A stretch of DNA of 51,103 nucleotides, taken from assembly GCA_016208165.1 (NCBI GenBank), contig JACQYL010000072.1, positions 1-51,103 of the forward strand, in the 5' to 3' direction. Below are positions 3,001 to 31,064 of this stretch, one piece after another. Made by a program: the position numbers and the translations under genes. The first letter of the stretch is position 1. Every line of letters starts with the position of its first letter. The notes under the pieces are model-generated. The model did not search any database, was not told where the DNA came from, and saw only the letters and a list, made by a program, of their open reading frames with translations. Source of the stretch: Deltaproteobacteria bacterium (lineage in GTDB: Bacteria; Desulfobacterota; Desulfarculia; JACQYL01).

Positions 3001-3409
3001 GAGCGAAAGCGTTACAGAAATCCCATCGAGCCGCGGAGAGACGGTATTGCTGGTCGAGGACGAGGTTTCTATTTTGGAGATCGGCAAAAGGATGCTAGAG
3101 GGACTTGGTTATGCCGTATTGACCGCGGGCGCCCCCGGAGAAGCCATGCACCTGGCCGAGGAACATGCGGGCGAAATCAACCTGCTGATAACGGATGTGG
3201 TAATGCCTGAATTGAACGGACGCGAATTGGCCAATGAACTGAGATCCTTCTACCCTGATCTCAAAATCCTGTTCATGTCCGGCTACACGGCCAACGTCAT
3301 CGCCCATCGGGGAGTATTGGAAGAAGGCGTTTGTTTCATGCCCAAGCCTTTTTCAAGAAAGGATCTGGCGCTTAAGGTCAGAGAGGCGCTGGATACCGCC
3401 AAGACCTGA
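2..3409 (+). CDS. Hybrid sensor histidine kinase, three PAS + GAF + HisKA + HATPase + REC (5' partial)
   Basis: The frame is already open at base 2, so the N-terminus lies outside the window. In order: the tail of an extracytoplasmic sensor region, a transmembrane helix (about 444-503), three PAS domains (about 570-940, 965-1330, 1345-1700), a GAF-like domain (1720-2230) with a CDKCPIAQNC cysteine cluster that could hold a metal or act as a redox switch, a HisKA domain with the phospho-acceptor His in GGVAHDYNN (codon at 2318), a HATPase with GCGMD and GTGLGLA boxes, and a C-terminal receiver with its Asp in TDVVMPE (codon near 3193) and a PKPF lysine. It is therefore a membrane hybrid kinase that would pass phosphate through its own receiver to an unknown partner. 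No output domain is present. The domain reading is secure; the stimulus is unknown. Confidence 0.93.
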   Translation, partial: PFHVDPEYPSPHLSVVVPLFSGKDRRTAVGALVLVCEAAQFLYPLIQSWPTPSDTAETLLVQKDGDDVLFLNELRHQKDTALKLRIPVSRADLPAAMAAGGREGIVEGKDYRGVEVVAAILRVPDSPWFMVAKVDSTEAFAEWRFRSIMILVFMLSVIGLVVAFGLVIRQRNLKAHYRELYRSETALSQAMERHSITLQAIGDAVMATDSKGRVDLMNPVAETLTGWKQEEARDRSINEVFRIINEGTRSIVEDPVARVLREGIVVGLANHTLLIARDGREIPIADSGAPIRDNNNEIIGVVLVFRDQTAERTHQKEIIESERKYRLLSDNTLDVIWTMNLDLEFTYVNPAIFSLMGFTQEEWIGSRLPEHCDEENFARMTWIIANETANGARSTGVIFEAVMFRKNGQPLPVEIHGKVIYDDGGQPVGLQGVTRDISERKQAEEALQYQDRLLREMGGIAKIGGWEFHPATGKGTWTEEVARIHDLDPSDETSLKRSLNFYLEESRAKIEKAVQDAIELGKPYDLELELITAKGARKWVRTIGQPKTENGKVVQVRGSFQDITEHKLAELRIEHLNRVLRSIRDMNQLIVRERDPGTLILDGCRLLVHNRGYASALVILTDEDDRPSSWAGAGMDDISESLNAFLASGGLPSCCDPGRTDREAVLIEDKADVCDKCPIAQNCTKMHTMCVRLIHGDVAYGYLIAALSHDLTIDDDERGLFTELGGDLAYALSFLRMDKARKESERKRESLGKQLLQAQKMESIGRLAGGVAHDYNNMLSVILGYSELALDKAAPGSPLRNDLREIIKATNRSMDITRQLLAFARRQTIAPKVLDLNDTLESMLKMLRRLIGEEIDLAWLPDADLWPVKIDPTQVDQILANLCVNARDAIGGVGKVTIETENVSFDEAYCADHAGFVPGNYVLIGVSDDGCGMDPETLDKVFEPFFTTKSTGLGTGLGLATVYGIVRQNNGFINIYSEPEKGTTVKIYLPRHTGAAVQALSESVTEIPSSRGETVLLVEDEVSILEIGKRMLEGLGYAVLTAGAPGEAMHLAEEHAGEINLLITDVVMPELNGRELANELRSFYPDLKILFMSGYTANVIAHRGVLEEGVCFMPKPFSRKDLALKVREALDTAKT

Positions 3410-9543: not shown

Positions 9544-12483
9544 ATGAATGCCGGTGACTTAACGGATCCCGGGAATTCTCGGATGAATAATGAATCGCTT
9601 CAGGATTCCTCCCGGCGGATCGGCGCGATCCTTGACAGCATGACCGAAGGTCTTGTGGGCATTGACTTCGATTGGCGGTGTACCTATGCCAACGAAGCGG
9701 CCGCTCGGTTCTTGGGAAAAACAAAAACGGATCTTATAGGACAAAAAGGCTTCGAGCTGTTCCCGGAAGCCAGAGGGACGGTCTTCGAGACCAACTTGCG
9801 CAAAGCCCTGGAAGAACGTGAGTCCGTATCGTTCGAAGCGTTTTACGAACCTTTGAAGTCCTGGTACGAGTGTCGCTGCAGTCCCTCTCCCGAAGGCATC
9901 AGCGTCCTCTTTTCCGACACAACCGAAAAAAGGCGTCGAGACAAGGAGCATGAAGATCTCCTGAGTGACCTGAACCGCAAAGCAGCCGAATTGGAAGCCG
10001 TGATCGATACCATGTCCCAAGGGCTCAAGATCTGCGATATGGCGGGGAATATCTTGACAATGAACCGGGCTGCGCTCGATCTGCACGGATTCAAGACCGT
10101 CCCGGACGCCCGCCGACCTGTATCGGAATATTCGGATCTTTTTGAACTGAAGCGTCTCGACGGTGAGCCGATACCAGCGGAGGAGTGGCCGTTAAAAAGG
10201 GTCATGCGGGGGGATTCCTTTTCAGGACTGGAACTGAGGCGGTACAGGAAAGACACGGGGATGGAGCAGGTGTGCGAGTTTTCCGGGGCTCCCGTTCGGG
10301 ACGCAACCGGACGGCCTGTATTGGCCGTCGTCATGCTCCAGGATATATCCGAGCGCAAGCGGGAAGAGCAGCGGATCCGCCGGTACAACAACGTGTTGCA
10401 GGGGATCAACCGGATCTGTCAGAAAGTGATCCGGGCGGAATCGGAAGAGGCCTTTGGGGAAACCTGTCTGGAGATTGCTCTGGAGATCACCGGCGGCGAA
10501 ATCGGCTTCATTGCTGAAATCGGGAACGACGGTCTTCTTCATTACGTTGCCGTCAGCCAATCGGGATGGAGCCAGTGTGCGATGATCGAGCAGACCGGCC
10601 CTGAAGGTCCGTCATGCGCTTTCCCCCTACGCGGCCTCCACGGCCGGGTTGTTCAGGATGGAAAAAGCCTGGTCGTCAATGATCCGCGGGCGCACCCCGA
10701 CAGCATCGCGTTGCCCGAAGGCCACCCGCCGCTCAGTTCGTTCCTTGGCGTTCCCCTTATCGAGGACGGAGAAACCACGGGCATCATTGCCGTGGCAAAC
10801 CGTAAGACAGGCTTCCGCGCAGACCAGCAGGAGGACCTCGAAGCGCTTGCGCCCGCGGTGGTGCAGGGCCTGCGGCGGATAAGGTCGGAAAGGGAGCGGG
10901 CCCTCACCGAGGAGTCGCTGCGGTCGAGTGAGAGCAGATACCGTGAACTGGTCCAAAACGCCAGAAGCGCCATCATCCGCTTTGAAAGAAACGGTACGAT
11001 CTCGTTTTTCAATGAGTATGCACAGGAGCTGTTCGGCTACAGCGAACAGGAGATACTCGGCAAACACGTGGGCATTCTGCTGCCCGAAATCGAATCCTCC
11101 GGAACCGATCGGTCCGGTCTGGTCCGGGAAGTGGTCAGCCGGCCAGAGCGTTACATGAGCAACATTAACGAGAACGTATGCCGGGACGGACGCCGGCTCT
11201 GGATGACGTGGACGAACCACGCGATATACGACGAGACCGGCCGATTGGCGGAAATTCTGGCTGTTGGAAGCGATATTACCAAGCTGATCCAGGCGGAGGA
11301 GGACCTGCGGAGATCCCGGGATGAGCTCGAACGGCGGGTTAAAGAGCGGACGGCTGAACTCCGGGAACGGGCCGAACAGCTCACCAGGCTGTCATCTCAG
11401 TTGACCCTGGCGGAGCAGCGCGAGCGACGCCGTCTGTCCGTAATCATTCACGACCACGTCCAGCAGTTGCTCGTAGGGGCCAAGATCAGTTTGGAGGTCC
11501 TGGCGGATGAATTGGGAGAGGAACACCAGGAGAGCGTCGGACAGATCTATAACTTGCTGCTCGAGTGTCTGAAGACTACGCGCTCCCTGAGCATACAAAT
11601 GGCGCCCCACGTTTTGTACGAGCGAGGGCTGGCTCCGGGATTGTCATGGCTGGCCCGAACAATCCAGGAGACCTTTCGAATCGACATCGAGGCGGATATC
11701 GGATCGGGGGACATCGTTGAAGCGGAAGACCTTAAAGTGCTTCTTTTCGAGTCGGCTCGCGAACTGCTGCTCAATGTGATTAACCATGCCCGCACTTCGT
11801 CGGCCCGACTCGAAATGTCACGCGATAAGGACGGCAACCTGCGGATCGCCGTCAGCGACCAGGGCGTGGGGTTTGACGCGGAGAAACTGGCAAAGGAATT
11901 GGGCCGGGAGGATCGTTTCGGACTGTTCAGCATTCGGGAGAGGCTGGAGCTTATCGGCGGCCGCCTCGAAATAGAGAGTTCACCCGGAAAGGGCGCGGTC
12001 TTCGGCCTGGTTGTCCCGATCGAAAAGATAACAGCCGCCGGCAAGGGTTTTGAAGCGCGCAAGGCGTCTCATAAAGGGGCCGTTACGGCTCTTACTCCGG
12101 CGGAGAAGAGAATCCGCGTCTTGCTGGTGGACGATCACACGGTGATGCGCCATGGCATCCTCTCTTTGCTGGAAAGGTATTCCGATATAGAGGTGGTGGG
12201 GGAGGCCGGAGATGGTTTGGAAGCCGTTCAGATGGCCCGAAACCTACAGCCCGAAGTGATTCTCATGGACATCAGCATGCCTAAAATGAATGGCCTGCAA
12301 GCGACCAAGTTGATCCATTCGGAATCGCCCCACATCCGAATCATAGGGTTGTCCATGTACGACGGGAGTGAAACGGAGAAAGGCATGCTCGTGTCCGGGG
12401 CCGCGGCCTGCATACCCAAGAGCGCTCACTCGGCTGCGCTCTTGACGGCGATTCGCCAACGGAATCCGGAAATGATACATTAA
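9544..12483 (+). CDS. Hybrid histidine kinase: PAS-PAS-GAF-PAS-HisKA_3-HATPase-REC
   Basis: A 979-residue soluble protein. It has PAS domains at about 22-130, 148-275 and 465-590, a GAF domain at 285-455 (FLGVPLIEDGETTGIIAVAN), then a coiled coil and a HisKA_3 dimerisation domain of the NarX/DegS type (EQRERRRLSVIIHDHVQQ, phospho-acceptor His near 636). A HATPase follows (about 745-830), then a receiver domain (857-970) with Asp 909 in ILMDISMP. The receiver resembles NarL/FixJ regulators (VDDHTVMRHG, IRIIGLSMYD) but stops without the LuxR-type helix-turn-helix, so a separate effector must exist. No transmembrane helix is seen, implying a cytoplasmic signal such as redox or a small ligand bound by PAS/GAF. 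An alternative ATG lies at 9583; neither start has a strong ribosome binding site. Confidence 0.93.
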   Translation: MNAGDLTDPGNSRMNNESLQDSSRRIGAILDSMTEGLVGIDFDWRCTYANEAAARFLGKTKTDLIGQKGFELFPEARGTVFETNLRKALEERESVSFEAFYEPLKSWYECRCSPSPEGISVLFSDTTEKRRRDKEHEDLLSDLNRKAAELEAVIDTMSQGLKICDMAGNILTMNRAALDLHGFKTVPDARRPVSEYSDLFELKRLDGEPIPAEEWPLKRVMRGDSFSGLELRRYRKDTGMEQVCEFSGAPVRDATGRPVLAVVMLQDISERKREEQRIRRYNNVLQGINRICQKVIRAESEEAFGETCLEIALEITGGEIGFIAEIGNDGLLHYVAVSQSGWSQCAMIEQTGPEGPSCAFPLRGLHGRVVQDGKSLVVNDPRAHPDSIALPEGHPPLSSFLGVPLIEDGETTGIIAVANRKTGFRADQQEDLEALAPAVVQGLRRIRSERERALTEESLRSSESRYRELVQNARSAIIRFERNGTISFFNEYAQELFGYSEQEILGKHVGILLPEIESSGTDRSGLVREVVSRPERYMSNINENVCRDGRRLWMTWTNHAIYDETGRLAEILAVGSDITKLIQAEEDLRRSRDELERRVKERTAELRERAEQLTRLSSQLTLAEQRERRRLSVIIHDHVQQLLVGAKISLEVLADELGEEHQESVGQIYNLLLECLKTTRSLSIQMAPHVLYERGLAPGLSWLARTIQETFRIDIEADIGSGDIVEAEDLKVLLFESARELLLNVINHARTSSARLEMSRDKDGNLRIAVSDQGVGFDAEKLAKELGREDRFGLFSIRERLELIGGRLEIESSPGKGAVFGLVVPIEKITAAGKGFEARKASHKGAVTALTPAEKRIRVLLVDDHTVMRHGILSLLERYSDIEVVGEAGDGLEAVQMARNLQPEVILMDISMPKMNGLQATKLIHSESPHIRIIGLSMYDGSETEKGMLVSGAAACIPKSAHSAALLTAIRQRNPEMIH

Positions 12484-14870: not shown

Positions 14871-15004
14871 AGGCCGTTGAAAAACGATGAGATGCAAGGC
14901 GCGCAAATCCCGAGGAATGAAGGCGTACATAGAGTACGTCGCAGTGACGAGGGATGAAGCGTCACGCCGTTGGCGTGACCGCAGATCGCGTTTTTCAACA
15001 GCCT
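14871..15004. repeat. 134-bp repeat with terminal inverted repeats (MITE/REP-like)
   Basis: The ends AGGCCGTTGAAAAACG and CGTTTTTCAACAGCCT are inverted repeats with one mismatch. An inner hairpin, GTCACGCC-GTT-GGCGTGAC (14961-14979), lies near the right end. No ORF is inside. Elements of this look (GTTGAAAAACG...CGTTTTTCAAC) are, from memory, dispersed in several Desulfobacterota genomes. Its right end overlaps the last codons of bamI. Confidence 0.7.
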
Positions 15005-15624
15005 GATGAAGGGAACTGAAGCAACTCCGCGCTTGACGGGGCGGGACTCGCCAGCGCTTTAGTCAAAGCGTAGGCCGCTTGTACTGCCGATGTAGGACAA
15101 AGGGGGAAACATTCCTTGCAGCCCCAGCACTCCTTAGCGGCTATTTCAGGGATGAAACATATCTCTCGCCTGGTTCCTCTATCGACAAATCCGACAGCGT
15201 TCTTCTTCTTCACTTCGGCGCAATATCTCACACACAGGCCGCAATGTACGCAAAATGAGGCCTCTTTGCCGAAACGGTCTTTGTCTGCTCCATATTCTTT
15301 AGCCAAATCAAGCAACTCCAAGGAATCCGGAGCATGCGCCAGCAATAACTCCACTATCATTTTGCGAATTCTATCTATCTTTTCAGATCTGGTTCTTACC
15401 ACCAAGTCTCGTTCCACCGGGTAAACGCAAGCAGCAACGAGTTTTGGCCGGCCGCGAACTTCCACTTCCACCGAGCAAATTCGGCAAGCTCCGTAAGGGT
15501 CTAATTTCTCGTGGTGGCAAAGAGTCGGAATAACAATCCCTGCATTTTGAGCTGCCTCTAAAATGGTCATCCCTTCCCTCGCCTCAACTTCTCTTCCGTC
15601 AATCCGCAAAAGCATTTCACTCAT
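14995..15624 (-). CDS. bamI: BamI-like NuoG/HoxU-type iron-sulfur subunit of class II benzoyl-CoA reductase
   Basis: A 209-residue protein with a plant-type [2Fe-2S] domain (CHHEKLDPYGACRIC ... C near 1-75), a His/Cys [4Fe-4S] region (SFCVHCGLCVRYC) and a last cluster motif (CWGCKECFPLC). It matches the N-terminal electron-wire part of NuoG, as does BamI of Geobacter. It would carry electrons between the NADH-oxidising BamH flavin and the rest of the Bam complex. The start overlaps the bamH stop by four bases (ATGA), so the two are translationally coupled. The stop codon and last residues (SSGC-stop) lie in the terminal inverted repeat of the 14871-15004 element. The C-terminus after the last cluster (Ala/Ser/Pro-rich) may therefore have been altered by that insertion. 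Confidence 0.88.
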   Translation of the reverse strand: MSEMLLRIDGREVEAREGMTILEAAQNAGIVIPTLCHHEKLDPYGACRICSVEVEVRGRPKLVAACVYPVERDLVVRTRSEKIDRIRKMIVELLLAHAPDSLELLDLAKEYGADKDRFGKEASFCVHCGLCVRYCAEVKKKNAVGFVDRGTRREICFIPEIAAKECWGCKECFPLCPTSAVQAAYALTKALASPAPSSAELLQFPSSGC

Positions 15625-17549
15625 TTCTGTTTACTCTCTCTGACTATAGTTCTGGCTTCTTCAGGGATAGGAGACGGAACAGGCTCACCGGAACTTTTCT
15701 CTACCGCGCCAAAACGAGGGGGGCAAACTTCAAAGCAGGTTCCGCACTTCGTGCATTTCTCCTGGTCAATTACGTGAATCTGGTTTTTGGCGCCTACTAC
15801 CGCCTCCGCAGGGCATTTTCGAAGACAAATCATGCAGGCCTTACACTTATCCGGGTCAATATGGTACGCGATCAGCTCCTTGCAGGAAAGAGCCGGGCAC
15901 CTTCTCTCCTTGATGTGCGCCTCATATTCTTCTCTGAAGTAGCGCAACGTGCTTAGAAACGGGTTGGGCGCACTCCTGCCCAAAGCACAAAGCGAAGCTT
16001 CGCCGGCTACTTCGGACAGTTCCTCCAACAGCTCGATGTCACCCTCTTTTCCCTTTCCTTTGGTGATGTTGGTGAGAATCTTAAGCATCTGCCTCATGCC
16101 TTCGCGGCATGGGGCGCATTTGCCGCACGATTCATCGGTAAGGAAGTCGAGGAAATACCTGGCGACGTCGACCATACAGGTATCTTCATCCATTATAATC
16201 ATCCCACCTGACCCCATCATCGAACCGGCCTTGGTGAGTTCATCAAAACCAACTTCCAAATCCAACAGTTCCTCGGGGATACATCCTCCGGACGGTCCCC
16301 CGGTCTGCACTGCTTTGAACCGCTTGCCACCAGGGATTCCACCGCCTATTTTGTAGATGATGTCTCTCAGGGTCATGCCCATGGGCACTTCCACAAGGCC
16401 GGTGTTGGTTATCTTACCGACCAAGGAGAATATCTTCGTGCCCTTGCTTCTTTCAGTTCCGAATTGAGCAAACCAGTCAGCGCCATTGTTGATAATAAGT
16501 GGCACATTCGCCCACGTCTCGACGTTGTTCAAAACGCTGGGTCTATCCCAAACGCCCTTGACCGCGGTGTGGATATATTTCGGTCGGGGCTCTCCGGCCC
16601 TGCCTTCCAGCGCCGTCATCAGGGCGCTCGATTCGCCGCAGACGAAAGCGCCGGCTCCTTGGTGCACTTTAACAGTGAAATCAAAGCCGGAGCCAAGGAT
16701 GTTTTTCCCAAGAAAACCATACTCCTCAGCCTTCTTGATAGCGATGGTCACATTTTCTACCGCCAGAGGGTATTCCTGTCGAACGTAGATATAGCCCTCG
16801 TGGGAACCTATGGCATAGGCTACGATGGTCAATCCCTCGAGCACTGAGTGAGGATTCCCCTCGAGAAGACTCCTGTCCATATAAGCTCCAGGGTCCCCCT
16901 CGTCTGCGTTGACGATCACATATTTGATTTCGCCCGGGGCATTGAGAGATTCTTCCCATTTTCTCCCTGCGGGAAAGCCTCCTCCTCCTCTCCCTCTCAA
17001 GTTCGATTTCTTGACTTCCTCCAATACCTGCTCGGCCGTCATCCGGGAAAGAACCTTGGCTAACGCGGAATAGCCACCGAGCGCCAGATAGTCGTCCATG
17101 CTTTTGGGATCAATATGACCGTTGGAACCGAAAACCAGCCGCTTTTGGTTCTTGTAGAAGGGGATTTCAGATTCACGAATTATTTTTTCATTGGTACTAG
17201 GGTCGGTATAGAGTAAACGCTCTATAACCTCCTTCTCTTTTACCGTCCGGGAGACGATTTCATGAACATCCTTGGGCTCTATTTGGAAATAACATATTTC
17301 CTCAGGGTGAATAACTATAATAGGCCCCCTCTCACAAAAACCGTGGCAACCCGTCTTCCTGATGTCTACCTCGGCGCTTAGGCCTTGTTTCTCGATCTCC
17401 TCTTCAAGGCTCGCAGCGACTTCTTTACTGCCGGAAGCATGACAAGCAGATCCGGAACAGAGAGTGATGCAAGGCTTATTGGGGTCTCTTTTCGACAGGA
17501 TGCTTTTCCTGAATTCCTCCAATTCAGCGGGCGAATGTATCCGCGACAT
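15621..17549 (-). CDS. bamH: BamH-like NuoF-type NADH-oxidising subunit
   Basis: A 642-residue fusion. The N-terminal thioredoxin-like [2Fe-2S] domain (CSGSACHASGS ... CHGFC) is followed by the NuoF core with the NADH/FMN loop GRGGGGFPAGRKW, NADEGDPGAYMDR and the N3-cluster motif ESCGKCAPCREG. Two C-terminal 4Fe-4S ferredoxin motifs follow (CKACMICLRKCP, CTKCGTCFEVCP). The same architecture occurs in HndC and HoxF-type and electron-bifurcating hydrogenases and in BamH. It would exchange electrons with NAD(H) for the Bam complex. It follows bamG after 8 bp and overlaps bamI. Assignment rests on domain order and on the operon context. Confidence 0.92.
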   Translation of the reverse strand: MSRIHSPAELEEFRKSILSKRDPNKPCITLCSGSACHASGSKEVAASLEEEIEKQGLSAEVDIRKTGCHGFCERGPIIVIHPEEICYFQIEPKDVHEIVSRTVKEKEVIERLLYTDPSTNEKIIRESEIPFYKNQKRLVFGSNGHIDPKSMDDYLALGGYSALAKVLSRMTAEQVLEEVKKSNLRGRGGGGFPAGRKWEESLNAPGEIKYVIVNADEGDPGAYMDRSLLEGNPHSVLEGLTIVAYAIGSHEGYIYVRQEYPLAVENVTIAIKKAEEYGFLGKNILGSGFDFTVKVHQGAGAFVCGESSALMTALEGRAGEPRPKYIHTAVKGVWDRPSVLNNVETWANVPLIINNGADWFAQFGTERSKGTKIFSLVGKITNTGLVEVPMGMTLRDIIYKIGGGIPGGKRFKAVQTGGPSGGCIPEELLDLEVGFDELTKAGSMMGSGGMIIMDEDTCMVDVARYFLDFLTDESCGKCAPCREGMRQMLKILTNITKGKGKEGDIELLEELSEVAGEASLCALGRSAPNPFLSTLRYFREEYEAHIKERRCPALSCKELIAYHIDPDKCKACMICLRKCPAEAVVGAKNQIHVIDQEKCTKCGTCFEVCPPRFGAVEKSSGEPVPSPIPEEARTIVRESKQK

Positions 17550-17557
17550 AATCTTCC

Positions 17558-18010
17558 CTAATCATAGTTTTTCAGCACGTCTGCTGTTTTGGCCGGCGCC
17601 ATCTTGCCGTGAGGCTTCCCATCGATTTCCATCACCGGTCCTAAAGCACAGCAGCCGAGGCAGTTAACCGTCTCCAGACTGAACTTCAAATCCAAGTCCG
17701 TTTCGCCGGGTTTAATTCCAGTCAGGTCCCGCACCGTGTCTAGGACGCGCGACGCACCCCGAACATGACAGGCGGTGCCCATACAAATGTGAATTTGATG
17801 TCGTCCTTTTGGAACCAAACTAAAAGCTTTATAAAAGGTAGCTATATGCTGAATCCGGGTCAAAGGAACCTGCAATCTTTCGCTAACCCTTTCCAATACT
17901 TCCTTAGGAAGCCAGTTATTTTCGCTCTGAATCTCCAGCAATATTTGAATGAGTGAACTAGCTTCACAGTTATGTTTTTCAATAATCTGATCGATTCTCT
18001 CTTTGTCCAT
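17558..18010 (-). CDS. bamG: BamG-like NuoE-type [2Fe-2S] subunit
   Basis: A 150-residue NuoE/HoxE family protein with an N-terminal helical bundle (IIEKHNCEASSLIQILLEIQ) and a thioredoxin-like [2Fe-2S] domain. The four cysteine ligands are in CMGTAC and CLGCC. In complex I and related enzymes this subunit sits beside NuoF and stores one electron in cluster N1a. It lies 52 bp after bamF and 8 bp before bamH on the same strand, matching the bamF-G-H-I order of Geobacter metallireducens as I recall it. Confidence 0.92.
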   Translation of the reverse strand: MDKERIDQIIEKHNCEASSLIQILLEIQSENNWLPKEVLERVSERLQVPLTRIQHIATFYKAFSLVPKGRHQIHICMGTACHVRGASRVLDTVRDLTGIKPGETDLDLKFSLETVNCLGCCALGPVMEIDGKPHGKMAPAKTADVLKNYD

Positions 18011-18062
18011 AGCCGATGTCCTAATCTTCTTCTTTCGCTAATCCACTACAAAGTCTTTCACC

Positions 18063-18836
18063 TCAGGCGAGAGTAAAACACTTCCGGCTTTCATCGTATC
18101 GGACCAATCCTTGCCTTGACGAACTGTTAATGTGTCTTGATACTTCAGACGGGTTTAGGCCCGACATCTCAGATATTTCTCTGGTTGAAAGGGGTCTTTC
18201 TCTCAAGAGCGCCAGTATTTGACCCAATGCCAATCGATCACCAATTAATTCATCAAATAACCTGTTTACCTCGTCACTGGTGAAGAATGTATTATACGCT
18301 TGTTCCGATTTAACCGGTACTCTCAGTCGCTCCCTTTCCACCAGCTTAACGTAGGGGATTAATCTGTTAACGGATTCAAATTTGAGCCTTAATCCATGTT
18401 CGTCAATTCCTTCGCTCTTGCCAAGAGGTCCTAACTCCCTCAGCTTCACCTTCATGGAGAAGTCATTCATGACTTCGGCGAAACGGCTTCCTTGAGAAGC
18501 AGATATCCATTCAAGCCTTAACCTCTCGGAGTTCACCCCTATGTGTTCCAGTAATTTCTTACATAGATACATATTGCTTAACGCGGCGTAATTTCCTTCA
18601 GTGATATAGTGGCATTCGCCGGGCCAACAACCGCCGATAAACACCCCGTCATTTCCATTTGAGAAAGCTCGGATGATGAACGACAGGTCGACTCTGCCCG
18701 TGCACATGAGGCGAACAATTCTAATCTCAGGCGAATATTGTAGTCTGGAAACTCCAGCCAAGTCCGCGGCGGAGTATCCTCACCAATTGCATAAGAAGCC
18801 TAATATTTTTGGTTTAAAATCGAATCCTGTACCCAT
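18063..18836 (-). CDS. bamF: BamF: selenocysteine-containing MvhD/HdrF-like subunit with C-terminal winged helix
   Basis: A conventional reading would start at GTG/ATG codons near 18761 and lose the N-terminus. Read through the in-frame TGA at 18780-18782, the gene starts at an ATG at 18836 (GGGAG upstream) and gives 257 residues. The N-terminus then matches the MvhD family: PKILGFLCNWUGYSAADLAG, where Sec19 replaces the second Cys of the usual CNWC. Further ligands are Cys45 (MCTGRVD), Cys70 and Cys75 (GGCWPGEC). MvhD-type proteins bind a [2Fe-2S] cluster and pass electrons to HdrA-like flavoproteins, here BamE. A SECIS-like hairpin follows the TGA directly. From about 165 on there is a winged helix-turn-helix-like tail (STREISEMSGLNPSEVSRHI). 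BamF of Geobacter and benzoate-grown Desulfococcus are reported to involve selenocysteine, which agrees. The sel genes are not in the window. Confidence 0.9.
18747..18782 (-). promoter_or_regulatory. Bacterial SECIS-like hairpin with UGA Sec codon of bamF
   Basis: Directly after the UGA, GGATACTCC pairs with GGAGTTTCC (8 of 9 positions). The stem continues as GCC/GGC above a single bulged U, capped by an 8-nt loop (GCGGACUU). A hairpin starting just 3' of the UGA, with a bulged U under a G-containing loop, is the layout of bacterial SelB-recognised SECIS elements. Folding was done by eye. Confidence 0.7.
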
Positions 18837-18906
18837 TCTTATCTCGCTCCCGGGTCGGTAATCCCTGCGTTGTTCATTGGCGGACTTCTACGAGTCCTCA
18901 ATCATC

Positions 18907-18964
18907 GCGTCAATTCGGCAAACGATCTGTCTACGCCGCGTCAATCTGGCAAATGATCTCTTCA
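18907..18964. repeat. 31-bp imperfect tandem duplication at the bamE 3' end
   Basis: GCGTCAATTCGGCAAACGAT (from 18907) recurs as GCGTCAATCTGGCAAATGAT (from 18938). The second copy encodes the last residues of BamE (ICQIDAA); the first lies just past its stop in the bamE-bamF gap. A 31-bp period shifts frame, so the duplication may have moved the bamE stop. Confidence 0.6.
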
Positions 18965-21900
18965 TCCGTATAGTGCTTCAGAAAAATGGCCCCTGTTGGA
19001 CACTTCGCGTTACAGAGGCCATCTCCCTTGCAAAGAACCGGATTAACCCAGGCCCTTCTGCCTTGTGGCGTGTCACGAAACTCTATGGCGCCGTAAGTGC
19101 AAGCTGTAATACATGCCCCGCAGGATACACAATCGTTCTCTTTAACCGCGCAAACAGCGCCGGAGGCTGTGACTGAATCCCGCGATAGAAGTGTTATGGC
19201 CCGGCCTGCCGCTCCATACGCCTGGCTGATCGTCTCAGACATGTGCTTAGGATAGTGGGCGGTTCCACACAGAAAAACACCTTCCGCGGCAAAGTCAACG
19301 GGTCTCAACTTTACATGGGCTTCCTGAAAGAAACCGTCCGGGCTCAAGGATACCTTGAATAATCGGGATATCTCCTGAGTTCCCGCCGAGGGGATTATGG
19401 CGGCGGCCAACGCGACCGCGTCGGCATCTATGGCAAGTTGCTCATTCAGAATAGGATCAGTCACGGTAACCCTTAAACTACGTTGCCCGCCCTCCTCGAC
19501 AGCTTCAACGTGAGGTTTATCATGCGGCTCGTAGCGGATGAACTTCACATCCTTATTGGATGCTTCCCGGTAGTAGTCTTCTCGAAACCCATAGGTTCTC
19601 ATATCCCGAAAAAGAATGTAGATATCCATCCGGGGATTGATCTCTTTCAGTTTCAGAGCATTCTTTATAGACTGGCTGCAGCATATCCGGGCGCAGTAAT
19701 TCCGGTCTTCTTGTCTGCAACCTACACATTGGATCATCGCCAGCGTCTGGGAGTTAATCAGCCTTTCTTCTCCCTTGGCGATGCGTTCCTCCAATTCCAG
19801 GTTGGTCAACACCCTGTCATCTTCACCATAGAGATATTCAGTGGGTTTGTATTCCGCAGCACCGGTGGCGAGGATGGCTGCTCCGTGGCGTATTTCATGG
19901 ACCCTTCCCTGGGCCTTCACCTTGGTTATGAAATTTCCGACATAGCCGGAAACCTCGGTGATGGCGGCGCCCGTTAACACATGGACCAAGGGATGCCGAT
20001 ATACCTTGCGCACCATATCACTCAAATAGGCTTGAACATCCAGTCCTTCCAGGGTGTAATGAATTCTTCGGGCCATTCCCCCCAGGTCTGAATCCTTTTC
20101 CACGAGGTACACCTCGAAGCCCTGGTTGGCCATACTCAACGCACTGGTCATGCCGGCCGGGCCCCCTCCGACCACCAGCCCCGTCTTGTTGACCGGCAGA
20201 TCGAATTCCTGCAAGGGCTCCAAAAGGGTCGTTCGGGCTACCGACATCCGGACGATATCCTTTGCCTTTTGGGTGGCGTCTTCCTTTTCTCGAGAGTGGA
20301 CCCAGGAACAATGTTCCCTAATATTCGCCATGTCGAAGAAATATTGATTAATTCCCCCTTCCCGGAGCGTGTCCCGGAATAACGGTTCATGAGTCCTGGG
20401 GGTGCAGGCGGCGACAACCACTCGGTTGAGTCCTTTTTCCCGGATCGTTTTCGATATTTGCTCGGCAGCATCGGTAGAACATGCAAACAGGCTTTCCTCG
20501 GCGTGAACCACGTTGTCCAAGGTTAATGCATATTCAACCACGGAAGGAACATCGACCACTCTTCCGATATTAGCTCCGCAATGGCACACAAAGACTCCCA
20601 CCCGGGTCTCTTCTTCCGACACATCCCTCTCCGGCGGATATACCCTTTCTCTGGCCAGCTTCCCACGCCGGTAATCGAGCAGTTGACCACACAGAGCGTC
20701 AGCCCCACTGGCGGTCACAACGGATTCGGGGATATCCACGGGACCCTGGAAAGCTCCGCTCACAAAAATGCCCGGTCGAGAGGTCTCGATCGGATTCACG
20801 GGATTGGTTTTGCAGAACCCATAAGAGTTGAGCTCGATGCCGAACGTATTCGCCAGGCCTTTCACATCGGCAGGTGGGTTGAGGCCAACGGATAATACCA
20901 CCAGGTCGAATTCCTCCTCCTTTACACCCTCGTCGGAAGTCGCGTATCTTATCGTTATGTTCTTGGTTTCAGGGATTTCTCTTCCTATGGATACGTAGCT
21001 TCTGATAAATCGAACCCCTGGAAGATTCTCCGCTCTTTGGTAGAATCGTTCGAAATCCTTACCATACGATCGAATATCGTTATGGAATATGGCCGCTTCG
21101 ATCTCGGCGTCATGGTCCTTGGCCAAGATCACCTGCTTCTGGGTGTACGAGCAGCATACGGCTGAACAATAGGTGTTACCGCCCGGAATAACCTGCCTGG
21201 AACCGACACAGTGAATCCACGCTATCTTATGTGGGTGTTTCCCGTCGGACGGACGCCTGATCTCACCTTCGTACGGCCCGGTGGCGCATAACAGCCGTTC
21301 AAAGTCCAGACTGGTTACCACGTTCTCCATTCTTCCGTAGCCATAGTCGCCCCTCAACTTAGGGTCAAATATCTCATAACCCGGAGACAAAACGATCGCC
21401 CCCACATTTACTTCTAGCTTTTCCGCCTCTTGATGAAGATCTATGGCGTCATTCTTACAGACTCCTTCGCAAATCGTACACTTCTTGTCTTGAATGTACA
21501 GGCAGGTCTTGGGGTCTATATAAGTGATAAGCGGTACCGCTTGAGAAAAGTATATATGGATGGCTTTATTCGACGATAAGTCTTGATTGAACGGATCAGG
21601 CACTTTCACAGGGCAATACTCTACACAGGTAGTACAGCCTGTGCACCTGTCCTCTATAATGTATCTGGGTTTCTTGGTCAGAGTTACCTTGAAGTCTCCT
21701 GCTTTCCCTTCTACACTGTCTACTTCGGTATAGGTCAGAATCTCGATATTGGGGTGCCTTGCACATTCGATGAACTTGGGAGATTCAATGCACATGGAAC
21801 AGTCGTTGGTGGGAAAGGTCTTATCAAGCTGGGCCATCTTTCCGCCAATGGCAGGTGACTTCTCAACCAAATAAACCTTATAACCTGAAGTGGCAAGATC

Positions 21901-22014
21901 AAGAGAAGCCTGGATACCGCTGATCCCTCCACCCACAACCATTACGTCGCCGAAATCGGTGTCCGTGGGAATTTTTAAGTACGTTCCTTCAACGGGTTCT
22001 TTTTCCAATCTCAT
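18931..22014 (-). CDS. bamE: BamE-like double HdrA flavoprotein
   Basis: A 1027-residue protein built of two HdrA-like units. The first has a GGGISGIQASLDLA FAD-binding loop, the HdrA cysteine motif NDCSMC and ferredoxin motifs (CTGCTTCVEYCP, CTICEGVC). The second begins near 490 with VFVCHCGANIGRVVDV, has a second FAD loop (VVGGGPAGMTSALSMA), CVGCRQEDRNYCARICC, and ends in two 4Fe-4S motifs (CVSCGACITACTYGA, CKGDGLCNAKCPTGA). HdrA subunits bind the FAD at which electrons bifurcate in heterodisulfide reductase complexes; BamE is thought to play this part for class II benzoyl-CoA reductase. Start at 22014 with AAGGAC upstream, 27 bp after bamD. The large size agrees with the roughly 110-kDa Geobacter protein. 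Confidence 0.92.
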   Translation of the reverse strand: MRLEKEPVEGTYLKIPTDTDFGDVMVVGGGISGIQASLDLATSGYKVYLVEKSPAIGGKMAQLDKTFPTNDCSMCIESPKFIECARHPNIEILTYTEVDSVEGKAGDFKVTLTKKPRYIIEDRCTGCTTCVEYCPVKVPDPFNQDLSSNKAIHIYFSQAVPLITYIDPKTCLYIQDKKCTICEGVCKNDAIDLHQEAEKLEVNVGAIVLSPGYEIFDPKLRGDYGYGRMENVVTSLDFERLLCATGPYEGEIRRPSDGKHPHKIAWIHCVGSRQVIPGGNTYCSAVCCSYTQKQVILAKDHDAEIEAAIFHNDIRSYGKDFERFYQRAENLPGVRFIRSYVSIGREIPETKNITIRYATSDEGVKEEEFDLVVLSVGLNPPADVKGLANTFGIELNSYGFCKTNPVNPIETSRPGIFVSGAFQGPVDIPESVVTASGADALCGQLLDYRRGKLARERVYPPERDVSEEETRVGVFVCHCGANIGRVVDVPSVVEYALTLDNVVHAEESLFACSTDAAEQISKTIREKGLNRVVVAACTPRTHEPLFRDTLREGGINQYFFDMANIREHCSWVHSREKEDATQKAKDIVRMSVARTTLLEPLQEFDLPVNKTGLVVGGGPAGMTSALSMANQGFEVYLVEKDSDLGGMARRIHYTLEGLDVQAYLSDMVRKVYRHPLVHVLTGAAITEVSGYVGNFITKVKAQGRVHEIRHGAAILATGAAEYKPTEYLYGEDDRVLTNLELEERIAKGEERLINSQTLAMIQCVGCRQEDRNYCARICCSQSIKNALKLKEINPRMDIYILFRDMRTYGFREDYYREASNKDVKFIRYEPHDKPHVEAVEEGGQRSLRVTVTDPILNEQLAIDADAVALAAAIIPSAGTQEISRLFKVSLSPDGFFQEAHVKLRPVDFAAEGVFLCGTAHYPKHMSETISQAYGAAGRAITLLSRDSVTASGAVCAVKENDCVSCGACITACTYGAIEFRDTPQGRRAWVNPVLCKGDGLCNAKCPTGAIFLKHYTDEEIICQIDAA

Positions 22015-22041
22015 ATGTCCTTATCGGGTTTCTACGATCCC

Positions 22042-23217
22042 TTAAATCACTTCCTGGATAATCTCTGTAATGTCCTTAATCTCTGGGACCTTACTACCCT
22101 CGATCTCTATGTCTTTACTATCCTGCAGGTTTAACCTGCTATCTTCGAAATTGGTGATGCAATACGGGCAGGAAGTAACCAATATCTCAGCCCCGACCCC
22201 CATAGCTTGTTCGAGTCTGAGGTCGGAGAATCGTTCACCCTTCGGAGTTTCCATCCAAATCCGGCCTCCGCCCCCTCCGCAACATAGGCTGTCCTTCAGC
22301 GAATCGGGCATCTCATTCAGCTCTAAACCGGGTATCTTCCTCAGGACCTCTCGGGGCTCGTCAAATATGCCATTATGCCGACCAAGGTAACACGGGTCAT
22401 GATACGTCACCTTCTTCGCATACTCCTTCCTGATCTCGAGCCTTCCCTCGTTTATAAGATCGAAAATATATTGGGAGATATGAACCACCTCGAAGTTCAC
22501 CCTGAATTCGGGATACTCGTTCTTGAAGGTATGGTAACAATGAGGGGAAGAGACCAGGATTTTCTTCACCCCGCTATCGATGAACGTCTTGATGTTTTCC
22601 CTGGCTAAGCGTTTGAACAGCTCCTCGTCGCCCGTCTTTCGGATGCTTTCTCCACAGCAATTTTCCTTGGAGCCCAGTATCCCGAAATCGACCCCTGCCC
22701 GTTTGAGGATCTGGGCCGTGGCTCTGGCCACCTTTTTCAATCTCGGGTCATAGCTGAGATAGCAGCCGGGGAAATATAGAATCTCCATCCCCTCGGCGAA
22801 CGTGTTTACGGACAGACCTTCCGCCCACTTCGCCCTGTTTTTTCGCTCCTCGTTCAAGGGGTTGCCTTCGCCGATAAGGCTTGCGCTCACGGTGCGGATC
22901 GGGCGGACAGAAGCAGGAAAGACCCCATATTCCGTGGCAATCCTGCGCAAAGACATCCCCGATTCGATCTGTTTTACGTCCCTGGGGCACCGCTGAGGGC
23001 AGATTCCGCAGGTAGTGCACCGCCAGATGTCTTCACTTTCTATCTCAGTCAAACCGAACGTCGCCTGACGGACAATCTTGCGCATGCTGAAGGTTCGAAC
23101 CCTGTTCCAAGGACAAACCGTATCACACAGTCCGCATTGATAGCATCGTTTGAAGGCATCTCCGCCCTTCGCCTTGATGACGTCCACAATCTCTTTGAAG
23201 TCGGCTACAGTCTCCAC
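22042..23217 (-). CDS. bamD: BamD-like HdrB/HdrD-type (CCG-domain) iron-sulfur protein
   Basis: A 391-residue HdrD/GlpC-type protein. Two 4Fe-4S motifs near the N-terminus (CYQCGLCDTVCP, CTTCGICPQRCP) are followed by two CCG domains: one with a FPGCYLSYD lead and NCCGES, the other with DPCYLGR and LCCGGGGGRIW. CCG cysteines bind the non-cubane clusters of heterodisulfide reductase, so this subunit may host the catalytic or electron-transfer cluster that meets a low- or high-potential partner of the Bam complex. It sits between bamC (35-bp gap) and bamE (27-bp gap). Confidence 0.92.
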   Translation of the reverse strand: METVADFKEIVDVIKAKGGDAFKRCYQCGLCDTVCPWNRVRTFSMRKIVRQATFGLTEIESEDIWRCTTCGICPQRCPRDVKQIESGMSLRRIATEYGVFPASVRPIRTVSASLIGEGNPLNEERKNRAKWAEGLSVNTFAEGMEILYFPGCYLSYDPRLKKVARATAQILKRAGVDFGILGSKENCCGESIRKTGDEELFKRLARENIKTFIDSGVKKILVSSPHCYHTFKNEYPEFRVNFEVVHISQYIFDLINEGRLEIRKEYAKKVTYHDPCYLGRHNGIFDEPREVLRKIPGLELNEMPDSLKDSLCCGGGGGRIWMETPKGERFSDLRLEQAMGVGAEILVTSCPYCITNFEDSRLNLQDSKDIEIEGSKVPEIKDITEIIQEVI

Positions 23218-23252
23218 GGTGTTTATCGATCCTGTTCTTTCGCCTGAATGTT

Positions 23253-23801
23253 TTAGCCCTTCTTTGACATGGCCATTCGAGCAACGGCATCCATTACCTG
23301 CTTGAAGCCATATTTGTTGGCCAATGATTCCAATCCGATCTCCATCTCCTCCTGCGTTTCTTCTTCTTCGACTTCCTCTTCCCTTTCTTCATAAATCAAG
23401 GCATCGTTTAAGCACCATTGGACACACATCGGCCTTTCCAGCGCCGGATCGCTTTCACACATATCGCACTTTAGAGGAAGTCCGGAATCGGGTTCCTTAA
23501 AAAGGTCCCTGGATGGGCAGGAGGCTCTGCAAAAGGCGCATTCGTCGTATTCCTTTCCGTCAATGGTGTATTTGTCCCTGCCGGTACATTCGGCTTTAGT
23601 ATACTCGCCTGCATATACAGGGACATATACGTCTCTCAGTGGCTCATGAATCACGCGGATGCGAGACCTGGCCGGATTGTTGCTCCCATATTTGGGCGCA
23701 GCGTGAAAGGAGGAGCAGATAACCTCACAGGCACGGCACCCGTTGCATTTATCCAGATCCACTTTTATGGTTTTAACAATTTTCTTTTTCTTCTCACCCA
23801 T
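23253..23801 (-). CDS. bamC: BamC-like ferredoxin subunit of benzoyl-CoA reductase
   Basis: A 182-residue ferredoxin-type protein. Cysteine motifs CNGCRACEVICSSFH, CAFCRASCPS and CDMCESDP...CVQWC account for about three [4Fe-4S] clusters. In the Geobacter BamBC structure the small subunit wires electrons to the tungsten subunit; this protein is of matching size and position, 21 bp after bamB. An acidic stretch (EEREEEVEEEETQEE) precedes a short helical C-terminus. The layout of HycB/DMSO-reductase B-like ferredoxins is similar, but the operon context favours BamC. Confidence 0.93.
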   Translation of the reverse strand: MGEKKKKIVKTIKVDLDKCNGCRACEVICSSFHAAPKYGSNNPARSRIRVIHEPLRDVYVPVYAGEYTKAECTGRDKYTIDGKEYDECAFCRASCPSRDLFKEPDSGLPLKCDMCESDPALERPMCVQWCLNDALIYEEREEEVEEEETQEEMEIGLESLANKYGFKQVMDAVARMAMSKKG

Positions 23802-23822
23802 GACGGTTGCTACCTCTTCCCT

Positions 23823-25829
23823 TTATTTTTGCACTGTTTCCGACGAAGTCTCTTTGGAGAGTGCGACCTCGTTGTCTTTCAAGATGCCTCGCTGCAGCAA
23901 ATCTTCGGCAACGTCATCCATAGACAATTCATGCAAAGACTCCTTGGTGGGAATGCCCTGATGATTCCATCCCTTAAATCCGTAGTACTCATCCAAGAGC
24001 TTAGCTTCCAACTCGGGAAAACGTTTCTTCCAGTGATCCTCTGGAGGACGTTCGTCTCTTCTTCTTAAACCTCTTCTAACATTAACGGCTCTGATTAAGG
24101 TACGGTTCCTCTTGGCAACTTTTGATAGTCCGTCTTCATCCATATCGATTCCCGTTGCAGATGATACAAACGATGGATAATTGTGTATGTGATATGGAGG
24201 TTTCAGGGGAAACGATGACAAGCCGGCGCACATCCCTAGAGTGTCATCGATGTAGTGCATCTTCTCTTGCCAATCGACAATTTCACATGTCGCTTCAATC
24301 GTGGGATAGTATGGAATGGAGTTTTCTCCGCGAGGATCCCAATCCAAGAAATATTGTTTGAACTTCTCATTGGGAGCCTGGAACCAATCTTTTACAAACT
24401 CTTCTCTATCCTCTCTATTGGGAAAAGGCGCCTGGGGAAACTGCCCTTCAATTTGGGTAATGTTGATCTTCTCGCCGGTGCAATACATGAGGAAGTAAAT
24501 GGGGTTCAGCATGCCCAGCTTGAGAGGAAGTTGCTCGTGTTTCTTGATGTTGTTATGGGCATATGCTTCCGCACCCTTACCGATCTGTTTGGCCGCCCAG
24601 TGGGTGCCATTGGCCAGAACATCTCCGATCCCTTCCCGACGAACAATTCTGTCAAGTAACCATAAAAACCTACCCTGGTTATCGGACGGCATCCCCTGCA
24701 GGTCCTGGTCCGTCAAAATGCCGGCTTCATATAACTCGAGGGCGAAGGCCATCGTTTGCGGGGTTGAAAACGCGTCCACCCCATAATCGGTGGCACGCTG
24801 AGCGATCTTAAAACCAAACTCCAGGTCCGTCATGGACGCCATGGTATAAGTGAGCTTCGAGTAGCATTTCATCATGTACGTTGGATGTCCCGGGACATTT
24901 ATGGTCGCCCCGCACTTCATCGGACAGTTATAGCAGCTGATGAAGCGCTCCCGAACGTTGTCGAGGCTCTCCGTCCACTTCTTTTTGACTTCCTCGTTCC
25001 AGTAGTCTTTTAGTCGGTGGCGCGCATTTCCCCAGGCGAAATTGTTGGCATGCCACTCCTCGTCATGGATGGCCATCTCTTGCGGTGATCCGAGCCCGGC
25101 CAAAATGGCCGGCACTCCCTTGATTGGATTGTTTGCTCGGAACTGTATGTACTTCAGCACTTCATTGCAAAGCTCGATGAATTCAGCCGGTCGGGCAATA
25201 TTGATGTCCTTTGTTCCACGAACAGCGATTGCCTTTAACCCTTTGTCCCCCATAACGGCGCCCATTCCTCCCCGGCTGGCGCTGGACCGGCCCTGCTCGA
25301 CGGAGGCGAAATAGACCCTGTTTTCACCGGCCAACCCGATAGCGGACACCTGGGCCTTAGGCTCCTTTAACTCCTGCCGAATCAGTTTTGCGGTTTCCAC
25401 AGCGCCCTTACCGTGCAAATGAGCGGCGTCACGTATTTCCACTTTGTCGTTGTTGATCCACAAATAGACCAGGCTGGGGGACTTGCCGCGAACGATCACT
25501 TTGTCATAACCGGCATACTTCAATTCCGGCGCCCAGAATCCCCCCATCATGGAATAGGCCATTAACTGAGTCTGGGGAGAAATGGTGGAAAGGATGGTGC
25601 GATTACAGCCGACGGCAGGTGTTCCGCACAGAAGACCGGTGCCGAATATGAGTAGATTTTCAGAAGAAAAGGGTTCAACTTCAGGGGGAACCCTATCCCA
25701 CAATATCTTGGCGTTGGTGCCCAGACCCCCCAGAAGCAGCTCGGTCAATCTCGGGTCAGTGGGCGCCCTCTCAATGTTTCCTCGGGATAGATCAATTTCC
25801 AGATTAAACCCTGTCTCTGCGTATCTCAT
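23823..25829 (-). CDS. bamB: BamB: tungsten-containing catalytic subunit of class II benzoyl-CoA reductase
   Basis: A 668-residue aldehyde:ferredoxin oxidoreductase family protein. It carries a bis-pterin tungsten site and a proximal [4Fe-4S] cluster (Cys299, Cys302, Cys306). Counting from the ATG at 25829, the residues recalled as the active site of Geobacter BamB fall at the same numbers: Glu251, His255, His260 and the W ligand Cys322 (MMKCYSK). That match separates it from ordinary aldehyde oxidoreductases and supports reductive dearomatisation of benzoyl-CoA to cyclohexa-1,5-diene-1-carboxyl-CoA. It is the first gene of the eight-gene minus-strand operon, with AAAGGG 9 bases before the start. 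An aryl-CoA other than benzoyl-CoA (for example a chloro-, hydroxy- or naphthoyl derivative) cannot be excluded. Confidence 0.93.
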   Translation of the reverse strand: MRYAETGFNLEIDLSRGNIERAPTDPRLTELLLGGLGTNAKILWDRVPPEVEPFSSENLLIFGTGLLCGTPAVGCNRTILSTISPQTQLMAYSMMGGFWAPELKYAGYDKVIVRGKSPSLVYLWINNDKVEIRDAAHLHGKGAVETAKLIRQELKEPKAQVSAIGLAGENRVYFASVEQGRSSASRGGMGAVMGDKGLKAIAVRGTKDINIARPAEFIELCNEVLKYIQFRANNPIKGVPAILAGLGSPQEMAIHDEEWHANNFAWGNARHRLKDYWNEEVKKKWTESLDNVRERFISCYNCPMKCGATINVPGHPTYMMKCYSKLTYTMASMTDLEFGFKIAQRATDYGVDAFSTPQTMAFALELYEAGILTDQDLQGMPSDNQGRFLWLLDRIVRREGIGDVLANGTHWAAKQIGKGAEAYAHNNIKKHEQLPLKLGMLNPIYFLMYCTGEKINITQIEGQFPQAPFPNREDREEFVKDWFQAPNEKFKQYFLDWDPRGENSIPYYPTIEATCEIVDWQEKMHYIDDTLGMCAGLSSFPLKPPYHIHNYPSFVSSATGIDMDEDGLSKVAKRNRTLIRAVNVRRGLRRRDERPPEDHWKKRFPELEAKLLDEYYGFKGWNHQGIPTKESLHELSMDDVAEDLLQRGILKDNEVALSKETSSETVQK

Positions 25830-28447: not shown

Positions 28448-31064
28448 ATGAAACAGATTGAGGTGGGATACGGCGCGGCGGAGGGAAAGGATTCTTTCTC
28501 CGTCGGTGCGGAGGCCGCCCTCAAAGCAGCCGAAGGGATCACCTCGCACCCCCTATCCGCGGTGCTCGTTTTTGCGTCGGTTCGTTACCATCTGCCTGAA
28601 TTGCTTGGGGGAATCCATCATATCATGGGCCATGTCCCCGTATTTGGAGCCACCACCGCCGGCGAAATCTGTAACGGGTCTTTACACGGGAGCGTGGTTG
28701 TAACCGCCTTGGCTTCAGCGAATCTTCGAGTGCGACTGGGGCTCGGGAAACATGTTTCCGCCGGATGGCGAAAGGCGGTGGAACAGGCCATCGGCTCGAC
28801 CGAGATCCGACCCTATTTCTCAGGCAACGACAGCGAAATTTGGGCGGAAATGACGCGCAAGGGCAAGTCGATTTTCGGCATACTCTTTTCACCCGGAAAC
28901 ACCCGCCATGCCGATTCCCGCAGTTTCGAAACGCTGGAAGAGCTCAAGCGACTGTCGGCCGGCCGGATTCCTTTTTTCGGCGGCAGTGCGGCCGACGATT
29001 GGAACATGGAAGCCAATTTTGTCCTGCATAACATCGAGGCGCATGCGGACAGCCTGCTGGTAGCGGTTTTCGAAACCAGCCTCCGGTTCGGCATGTCGAT
29101 GGGCCACGGCTTTTCGCCTTCGGACAAACGGGCGGTGGCAACGAAAGTCAAGGGCCATACGATTTTGGAATTGGACGGCTGCCGCGCGGCTGACCTGTAC
29201 GCGAAAATGCTGGAAAGCGATGTTGACGGCTTGAGAGACAAGCACCTGACTCTGACGTCCTCCCGGCCTGTCGGAATGCCGGACATGCTGGATCAATATC
29301 ACATCAATGTGGCCAGCTTTTTCACTCCCGAAGGGGGCGTGCGTTTCAGCCAGCCGGTGCCTGAAAACAGCACTATTACGATCATGGAGGCGCGGCCCGA
29401 GCAGTTGATCGAAGCGGCGCGGGAGACAGTGCGAAATGCCCTCCTGCGCGGGCAGATTCAGCGACCGGCCGTGGCCCTTGTTTTCTCGTGCGCCTTGCGC
29501 AGACATATTCTGAGAGAAAGATCGTCTGAAGAAATTTCAGCCATCCGGTCCTTACTCCCAGAAATTCCCATCCTCGGTTTTTATTCATTTGGAGAACAAG
29601 GGGTCAACGATGCCGGCGTGAGTGGTCATGGAAACGAAAAGATTACGGCTCTTGTCCTGGGAGATGAGCTTTCGACGGGCGCAGAAGTGGCCCTCGAGAA
29701 CCAGCGGTTATTGAGACTTCAGCGGGAGGCTGAAAAAAAGCTTCGGTTCCAGGCCAATATCCTTGACGCCGTCCAGGACACAGTGTTGATCATTTCGAGC
29801 GAGATGAAAACGTTGTGGGGCAATCCGGTTGCCAAGGACCTCTTCGGGGACCGGCCTGAAATGTTCACCGACCCGTGTTATCGGTTTTATAAACAAAGGG
29901 ACGTGATCTGTGAGGAATGTCCCGTTATCAAGACCATGACGGACGGTCGCAGTCATCAAGCGATCATGAAATCGATCGACAAGGATGGGAACGTCATCTG
30001 GCGGTTGAACCGCGCCTATCCCTATTTTGACGAACAGGGACGGATCGCCGGCGCCATTGAGATCGTATCCGACTATTCCGATCAAAAGAGGTTGGAGGAC
30101 GCTCTCAAGGAGAGCGAGCTCAACCTCAAACAGGCTCAGGCCGTGGCCGGCGTGGGGAGCTGGCATCTCGACATTATGCACGATGTCCTGACCGGTAGTG
30201 ACGAGGCCTACCGGATATTCGGCATCCCTAACCGCACCCCTCTAAACATAGAAACCGTTCTGGAGCGGGTGCATCCGGACGATCGAACCCTGGTGGAATC
30301 CGCATGGAATGCGGCGTTAAAGGGGGCTGTCTTCGATATCGAACACCGCATCATCTCGAGGCAGGAAGAACTCTGGGTTCATGAAAAAGCCCGCATCGTC
30401 TTTGACGGCCGAGGGACTGCAATAGAAGCGATAGGAACGGTCCACAATATTACCAAGCGCAAGCAAACCGAAGAGTCGCTGCGCGAAAGGGAGGAAAAAT
30501 TCAGATTCATCAGCGAAAACATAGCGGATATTGTCTGGACCCTCGATTTGAATTTGAATACGACATACGTAAGTCCCTCTGTCGAAGCCATCCTCGGATT
30601 CACGCCGGAAGAAAGGGTAAGACAATCGTTGGAGGAGATGATTACGCCGGAATCCATTCAACGGATTCTGGCACGATTTCAGGAAGAGCTATTGCGCGAA
30701 AATGAAGATGCCGTCCCACAAGGATGGGTCTGTTATATGGATGGAAAACATCGCGAAGCCGATAAGGGATTCATCCGGATCTCTCGTAGGGATATTGGGC
30801 GTTTCGCGTGACCTCACCGAGCGCAAGCGCGCGGAAGAGGAAAAAGAAAAACTCATTAATGAATTAAGAGAGGCCTTGGCCAAAGTCAGAACGTTGAGCG
30901 GTCTTTTACCCATTTGTTCCGTATGCAAGAAGATCAGAGACGACAAAGGATACTGGAACAAGATCGAGTCGTATATTAAGGACCATTCCGAGGCGGACTT
31001 TACCCACAGTATTTGCCCGGAATGCGCTAAGAAACTATATCCCGGTTTCGGTGTATCCGGCTGA
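28448..31064 (+). pseudogene. FIST-PAS sensor protein, interrupted by a frameshift
   Basis: The first frame (28448-30811) encodes FIST_N and FIST_C domains (about 30-390; FIFGILFSPGNTRHAD-like core, PFFGGSAADDW, LGFYSFGEQG) and then PAS domains at about 435-545, 555-680 and the start of a third (690 on). The third PAS breaks near 30700-30710. Its remainder is in another frame from 30702 (HKDGSVIWMENIAKPIRD, GVSRDLTERKRAEEE), followed by a coiled coil and a four-cysteine tail (ICSVCKKIRDDKGYW, then SICPECAKKLYP). Joined, it is about 870 residues. FIST domains are thought to sense small ligands such as amino acids. No kinase or GGDEF domain follows, so output may go through the Cys4 tail. It could be a true mutation or a sequencing error. 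Confidence 0.8.

Follow-up and report, generated by a model that had tools for sequence, protein, structure and literature searches.

The bam cluster and its bamF gene

The window, by which we mean the whole analysed stretch of 51,103 nucleotides, carries a complete bamBCDEFGHI cluster on its minus strand (14995–25829), with the genes assigned by domain content and gene order (Table 1). Located between bamE (end 18931) and bamG (start 18010), bamF occupies the slot expected of BamF. Read from the ATG at 18836, codon 19 of bamF is an in-frame TGA in the context LCNWUGYSAADLAG, and from there the frame is open to the gene's own stop, also a TGA, at 18063–18065. A sequence-only reading of this DNA had described the codon in the same terms and had proposed that bamF is a selenoprotein gene. 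An in-frame TGA was also looked for in the bamE of the window, and none was found. Near the cluster are two large PAS sensor kinases that carry receiver domains, along with a FIST–PAS protein (44–3409, 9544–12483 and 28448–30811).

Table 1. Genes and features of the bam cluster, with hairpin nucleotides numbered from the U of the UGA (nt 1)
Feature	Position	Strand	Description
bamB	23823..25829	-	tungsten aldehyde ferredoxin oxidoreductase family subunit
bamC	23253..23801	-	Fe-S subunit
bamD	22042..23217	-	HdrBC-like subunit
bamE	18931..22014	-	HdrA-like flavoprotein subunit
bamF	18063..18836	-	very probable selenoprotein ORF, 257 residues, TGA codon 19 read as Sec
FlpD/MvhD [2Fe-2S] domain of BamF	18444..18806	-	residues 11–131
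In-frame TGA	18780..18782	-	codon 19, very probably Sec, CxxU motif
Lowest-energy hairpin of free RNA	18747..18779	-	nt 4–36; SECIS candidate of the sequence-only reading, probably not the functional one
Extended form of conserved hairpin	18731..18767	-	nt 16–52; -10.8 to -11.1 kcal/mol
Conserved SECIS hairpin core (candidate)	18745..18757	-	CUGG-AGUUU-CCAG; apical loop AGUUU, 26 nt from UGA
ArsR-like HTH (winged-helix) domain, BamF C-terminal	18099..18221	-	residues 206–246
bamG	17558..18010	-	NuoE-like subunit
bamH	15621..17549	-	NuoF-like subunit
bamI	14995..15624	-	2Fe-2S/4Fe-4S subunit, resembles NuoG N-terminal part

The match of BamF to the Pfam FlpD family (PF02662) spans the TGA (E = 2.9e-48, 163.4 bits versus a curated score of 22.3), which bears out the earlier claim that the frame past the TGA is continuous with the BamF core. 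The MvhD of 5odc has a Cys (CNWC) where bamF has the TGA, as had also been claimed for MvhD relatives. A BamF model built from 30 aligned BamF/MvhD rows has a mean pLDDT of 89.3 and matches the solved MvhD/ElpC chains 8rvu_F, 5odh_D, 5odc_D and 7bkb_F, with TM scores of 0.91–0.96 on the target. The ArsR-like winged-helix domain that ends BamF is odd for an enzyme subunit.

Conservation and probable decoding of the in-frame TGA

Scanning 84,980 species genomes yielded 80 related loci, 74 of which have a BamE-like neighbor. The motif was read in 77 loci, comprising 72 of bamF type and five archaeal MvhD genes; the scan pattern was written with Cys at the motif and therefore did not favor TGA genes. 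Identity to the BamF of the window reaches 74%. When the relatives are aligned with BamF and MvhD, a check suggested by the sequence-only reading, the column of 18780–18782 holds TGA for 67 of 72 bamF-type loci, Cys (TGT/TGC) for five and no other codon. Judged from the alignment, the recurrence of TGA in this column is more than chance. Two of the 67 TGA loci (L100 and L101) contain many further stops and look frameshifted. Positions C16, U19, C45, C70 and C75 are invariant in the BamF rows, with either Cys or Sec at position 19.

According to the labels of the records themselves, many of which are metagenome bins, the hosts belong to the Thermodesulfobacteriota, Myxococcota, Latescibacterota, Eiseniibacteriota, Chloroflexota, Gemmatimonadota and Planctomycetota. 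The bamF TGA is identical in Geobacter argillaceus and Desulfosarcina cetonica (L046 and L076). The 63 genomes of the window's own class gave 12 strong matches, spread over 10 genomes that include the window's, and 10 of the 12 have one TGA. The standard code does close the frame at codon 19, as a true stop in a pseudogene or a sequencing error would require, leaving bamF inactivated or truncated. We regard this as exceedingly improbable given that relatives in many phyla share the TGA, that the rest of the gene is intact, with no other stop in nearly all of them, and that the operon is intact and the decoding machinery present. Sequencing error in particular is virtually excluded because the same TGA is found in relatives of so many phyla.

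Without recoding, the longest bamF ORF would begin at TTG 18761 and encode 232 amino acids; the 25 residues lost, which include Cys16 and residue 19, agree with the loss of 25 or more that had been predicted; the same reading had counted two putative cluster ligands in that loss. Gene callers will truncate bamF. The existence of this TTG-initiated frame allows for translation to restart past the TGA and yield a shorter BamF lacking the CxxU motif. Such a restart is very improbable, however, since the lost part opens the FlpD fold and holds Cys16 and residue 19, which are never anything but Cys or Sec. In addition, the codon at 18761 is CTG in 51 of the 57 Sec relatives that have Leu there, and TTG 18761 is for that reason, as far as the comparison goes, no conserved start.

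The sequence-only reading had made its case depend on SelB and tRNA-Sec, and both are present in the window's assembly (5.69 Mb, completeness 95.5%, searched family by family), together with SelA and SelD. The tRNA-Sec has the anticodon UCA, and all 14 bamF genomes sampled for SelB have it. The frame would look equally open if a changed genetic code or a suppressor tRNA inserted some other amino acid at UGA, as it would under any recoding. This explanation is scarcely credible, however, because TGA terminates bamF, bamH and bamI, the only UCA-anticodon tRNA among the loci scanned is tRNA-Sec, homologues substitute only Cys, and a SECIS-like element is conserved. The TGA conservation and the decoding machinery thus support the proposal that bamF is a selenoprotein gene, and on these comparisons it very probably encodes one.

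Four further FlpD paralogues in the same assembly each have a single in-frame TGA inside the domain, and a single TGA is also in frame in an HdrA-like gene. Two FlpD paralogues of this genome (L012:1070–1438 on contig C7 and L016:1266–1634 on contig C5) have Cys in CNWC and a TGA at a later conserved Cys, in the contexts SGU-HPGDCH and SGU-RLGTCH, which marks a second Sec position within the FlpD family. In an HdrA–MvhD fusion on contig C29 (L018), an in-frame TGA falls within the HdrA part, in the context CPIUILAPK, and apparently corresponds to the CxxU Sec site known from HdrA.

A conserved hairpin downstream of the UGA

The RNA downstream of the UGA can form two competing hairpins. The sequence-only reading had pointed to one with a bulged U that starts immediately behind the UGA. 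This hairpin does exist as the lowest-energy fold (nt 4–36, -17.2 kcal/mol, z = -3.1) and in free RNA it outcompetes the conserved hairpin in stability. As a SECIS element, however, it fails on spacing and is poorly conserved. Its loop starts 13 nt past the UGA, below the 16–37 nt UGA-to-loop distance of the published bacterial SECIS model (PMC13188914), which also specifies an upper stem of 4–16 bp and an MFE of -7.5 kcal/mol or lower. In 29 distinct relatives 79.0% of cells pair versus 79.7% in shuffles, and several of its pairs persist in a third to a half of the 66 Sec genes, with 5–35 and 10–30 at 33%. A ribosome positioned at the UGA would moreover be expected to mask much of the 5′ arm. 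We therefore consider it unlikely that this hairpin directs Sec insertion, and the site named earlier is probably the wrong one, although the conserved core overlaps its downstream half.

The conserved core, CUGG-AGUUU-CCAG, pairs C26–G38, U27–A37, G28–C36 and G29–C35 around the loop. Of the 66 Sec genes, 63 keep its four-bp stem and two more pair in a shifted register; the loop G31–U32 is present in all 66. No other four-bp stem with a 3–9 nt loop within 60 nt of the UGA is kept as well. The core agrees with the model of PMC13188914 in loop size, position of the G, stem length and spacing. The short hairpin, at -6.9 kcal/mol, is weaker than the energy limit, whereas the extended form reaches it at -11.1 kcal/mol and becomes the lowest-energy fold once the first 10–15 nt past the UGA are covered, as they would be by an assumed ribosome footprint.

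Synonymous sites are directly seen to be constrained in this hairpin. The codons that form it, 27–30 of bamF, are the four lowest in synonymous diversity among 204 tested, and their usage is nearly uniform (GCT in 41 of 44, GGA in 62 of 65, GTT in 62 of 65 and TCC in 57 of 57), whereas the same amino acids take many codons elsewhere. After thinning to 43 rows of less than 80% identity, the five-codon window 26–30 is still the minimum of the gene (0.111 versus a mean of 0.503). The stem is lost in four of the first five Cys genes found, and the fifth is able to pair in a shifted register. Compensatory base changes were sought in the conserved hairpin and none was found; the scope for such changes is narrowed by the conserved amino acids as well. 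A consensus fold of 29 rows retained only two pairs, with covariation absent, and support for the hairpin therefore comes from synonymous conservation, the published model and the fact that most Cys genes have lost the stem. An Rfam search of 18600–18900 did not match a SECIS and gave four hits, all far below their gathering scores. The analysis gives the entire BamF family a defined SECIS hairpin that can be put to the test.

BamF in the benzoyl-CoA reductase complex and its Cys-type counterparts

Huwiler et al. (2019) reportedly found selenocysteine in the purified G. metallireducens complex. The Sec codon in bamF is correct as proposed, but as a trait of this enzyme family, common to nearly all relatives, it was in essence known before. 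Publications bear out the statement that a role of selenium in class II benzoyl-CoA metabolism was established. PMC13119186, citing Wischgoll 2005 and Peters 2004, gives selenite and molybdenum as essential in benzoyl-CoA metabolism; FrhD is listed as a selenoprotein for Geobacter metallireducens (PMC1794560); and the PF02662 subunit is listed as a selenoprotein with the motif CxxU (PMC13188914). Gmet_2083 is annotated as 'hydrogenase, delta subunit; HTH' (PMC1924859). The bam cluster of Desulfococcus multivorans is also reported to encode a selenoprotein, but it is called BamE (PMC5109826), whereas the TGA of the window lies in bamF.

BamF shares its domain, Sec position and [2Fe-2S] electron-connector fold with the selenoproteins FrhD, MvhD and VhuD (PF02662, CxxU). 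Unlike these proteins, which are encoded in hydrogenase clusters, BamF is encoded in a bam cluster and has an extra C-terminal part of ~120 residues that ends in the winged-helix domain. The BamF of G. metallireducens and other obligate anaerobes matches that of the window in operon order and in being an HTH-bearing MvhD-like subunit, and in comparison with the class II BamF of other obligate anaerobes we found no qualitative difference.

With TGA conservation, decoding machinery, synonymous-site constraint on the hairpin, operon and predicted fold observed directly, we are nearly certain of the following reading. BamF is predicted to be an MvhD-like electron-transfer subunit belonging to the class II (ATP-independent, BamB–I) benzoyl-CoA reductase complex, in which UGA 19 would be decoded as Sec by SelB and Sec-tRNA-Sec recruited through the hairpin at 18745–18757. 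The Sec would take the place of the second Cys in the CxxC of the [2Fe-2S] domain. In MvhD this domain hands electrons to the flavin of HdrA, whose counterpart here would be BamE. Because BamE is an HdrA-like neighbor, BamF most likely joins the NADH-handling BamGHI module to BamE (compare PMC6019823). A role of Sec in coordinating the cluster or in redox chemistry, like the direction of electron flow, is something that we infer. Ring reduction in the organism of the window probably needs selenium besides tungsten.

Nine BamF genes have Cys in place of Sec, all in the motif CNWCCY (L033, L034, L036, L078, L084, L109, L117, L124 and L125), and these offer a naturally occurring comparison by which the contribution of Sec could be judged. 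Absence of SelB was rejected as the cause of the Cys genes, since SelB is present in five of five Cys-type genomes tested. The first five Cys genes found fall on one side of a branch, and all nine do not form one clade; the AU test speaks against a single origin of the nine (rejected at p = 0.00016), a result that is tentative given the long branches. Sec- and Cys-type BamF occur together in five genomes (G001, G003, G005, G054 and G057), where nearly all of the genes adjoin BamE-like genes; the Sec-type copy in G005 is apparently frameshifted. In the window's own genome a second BamF was not found at the threshold used, and only the Sec form is present. One tentative and rather doubtful idea is that selenium-dependent (Sec) and selenium-independent (CNWCCY) versions of class II-like clusters coexist in some genomes, much as methanogens have paired Sec and Cys hydrogenases, which could allow ring reduction to be switched according to selenium supply or substrate. 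The Cys-type genes may instead serve other substrates.

A shorter BamF type (L089–L098, L142, L143 and L147) aligns only to about residue 197. In those of its loci that were checked, a separate bamG is absent and a BamH-like match lies close behind the gene.
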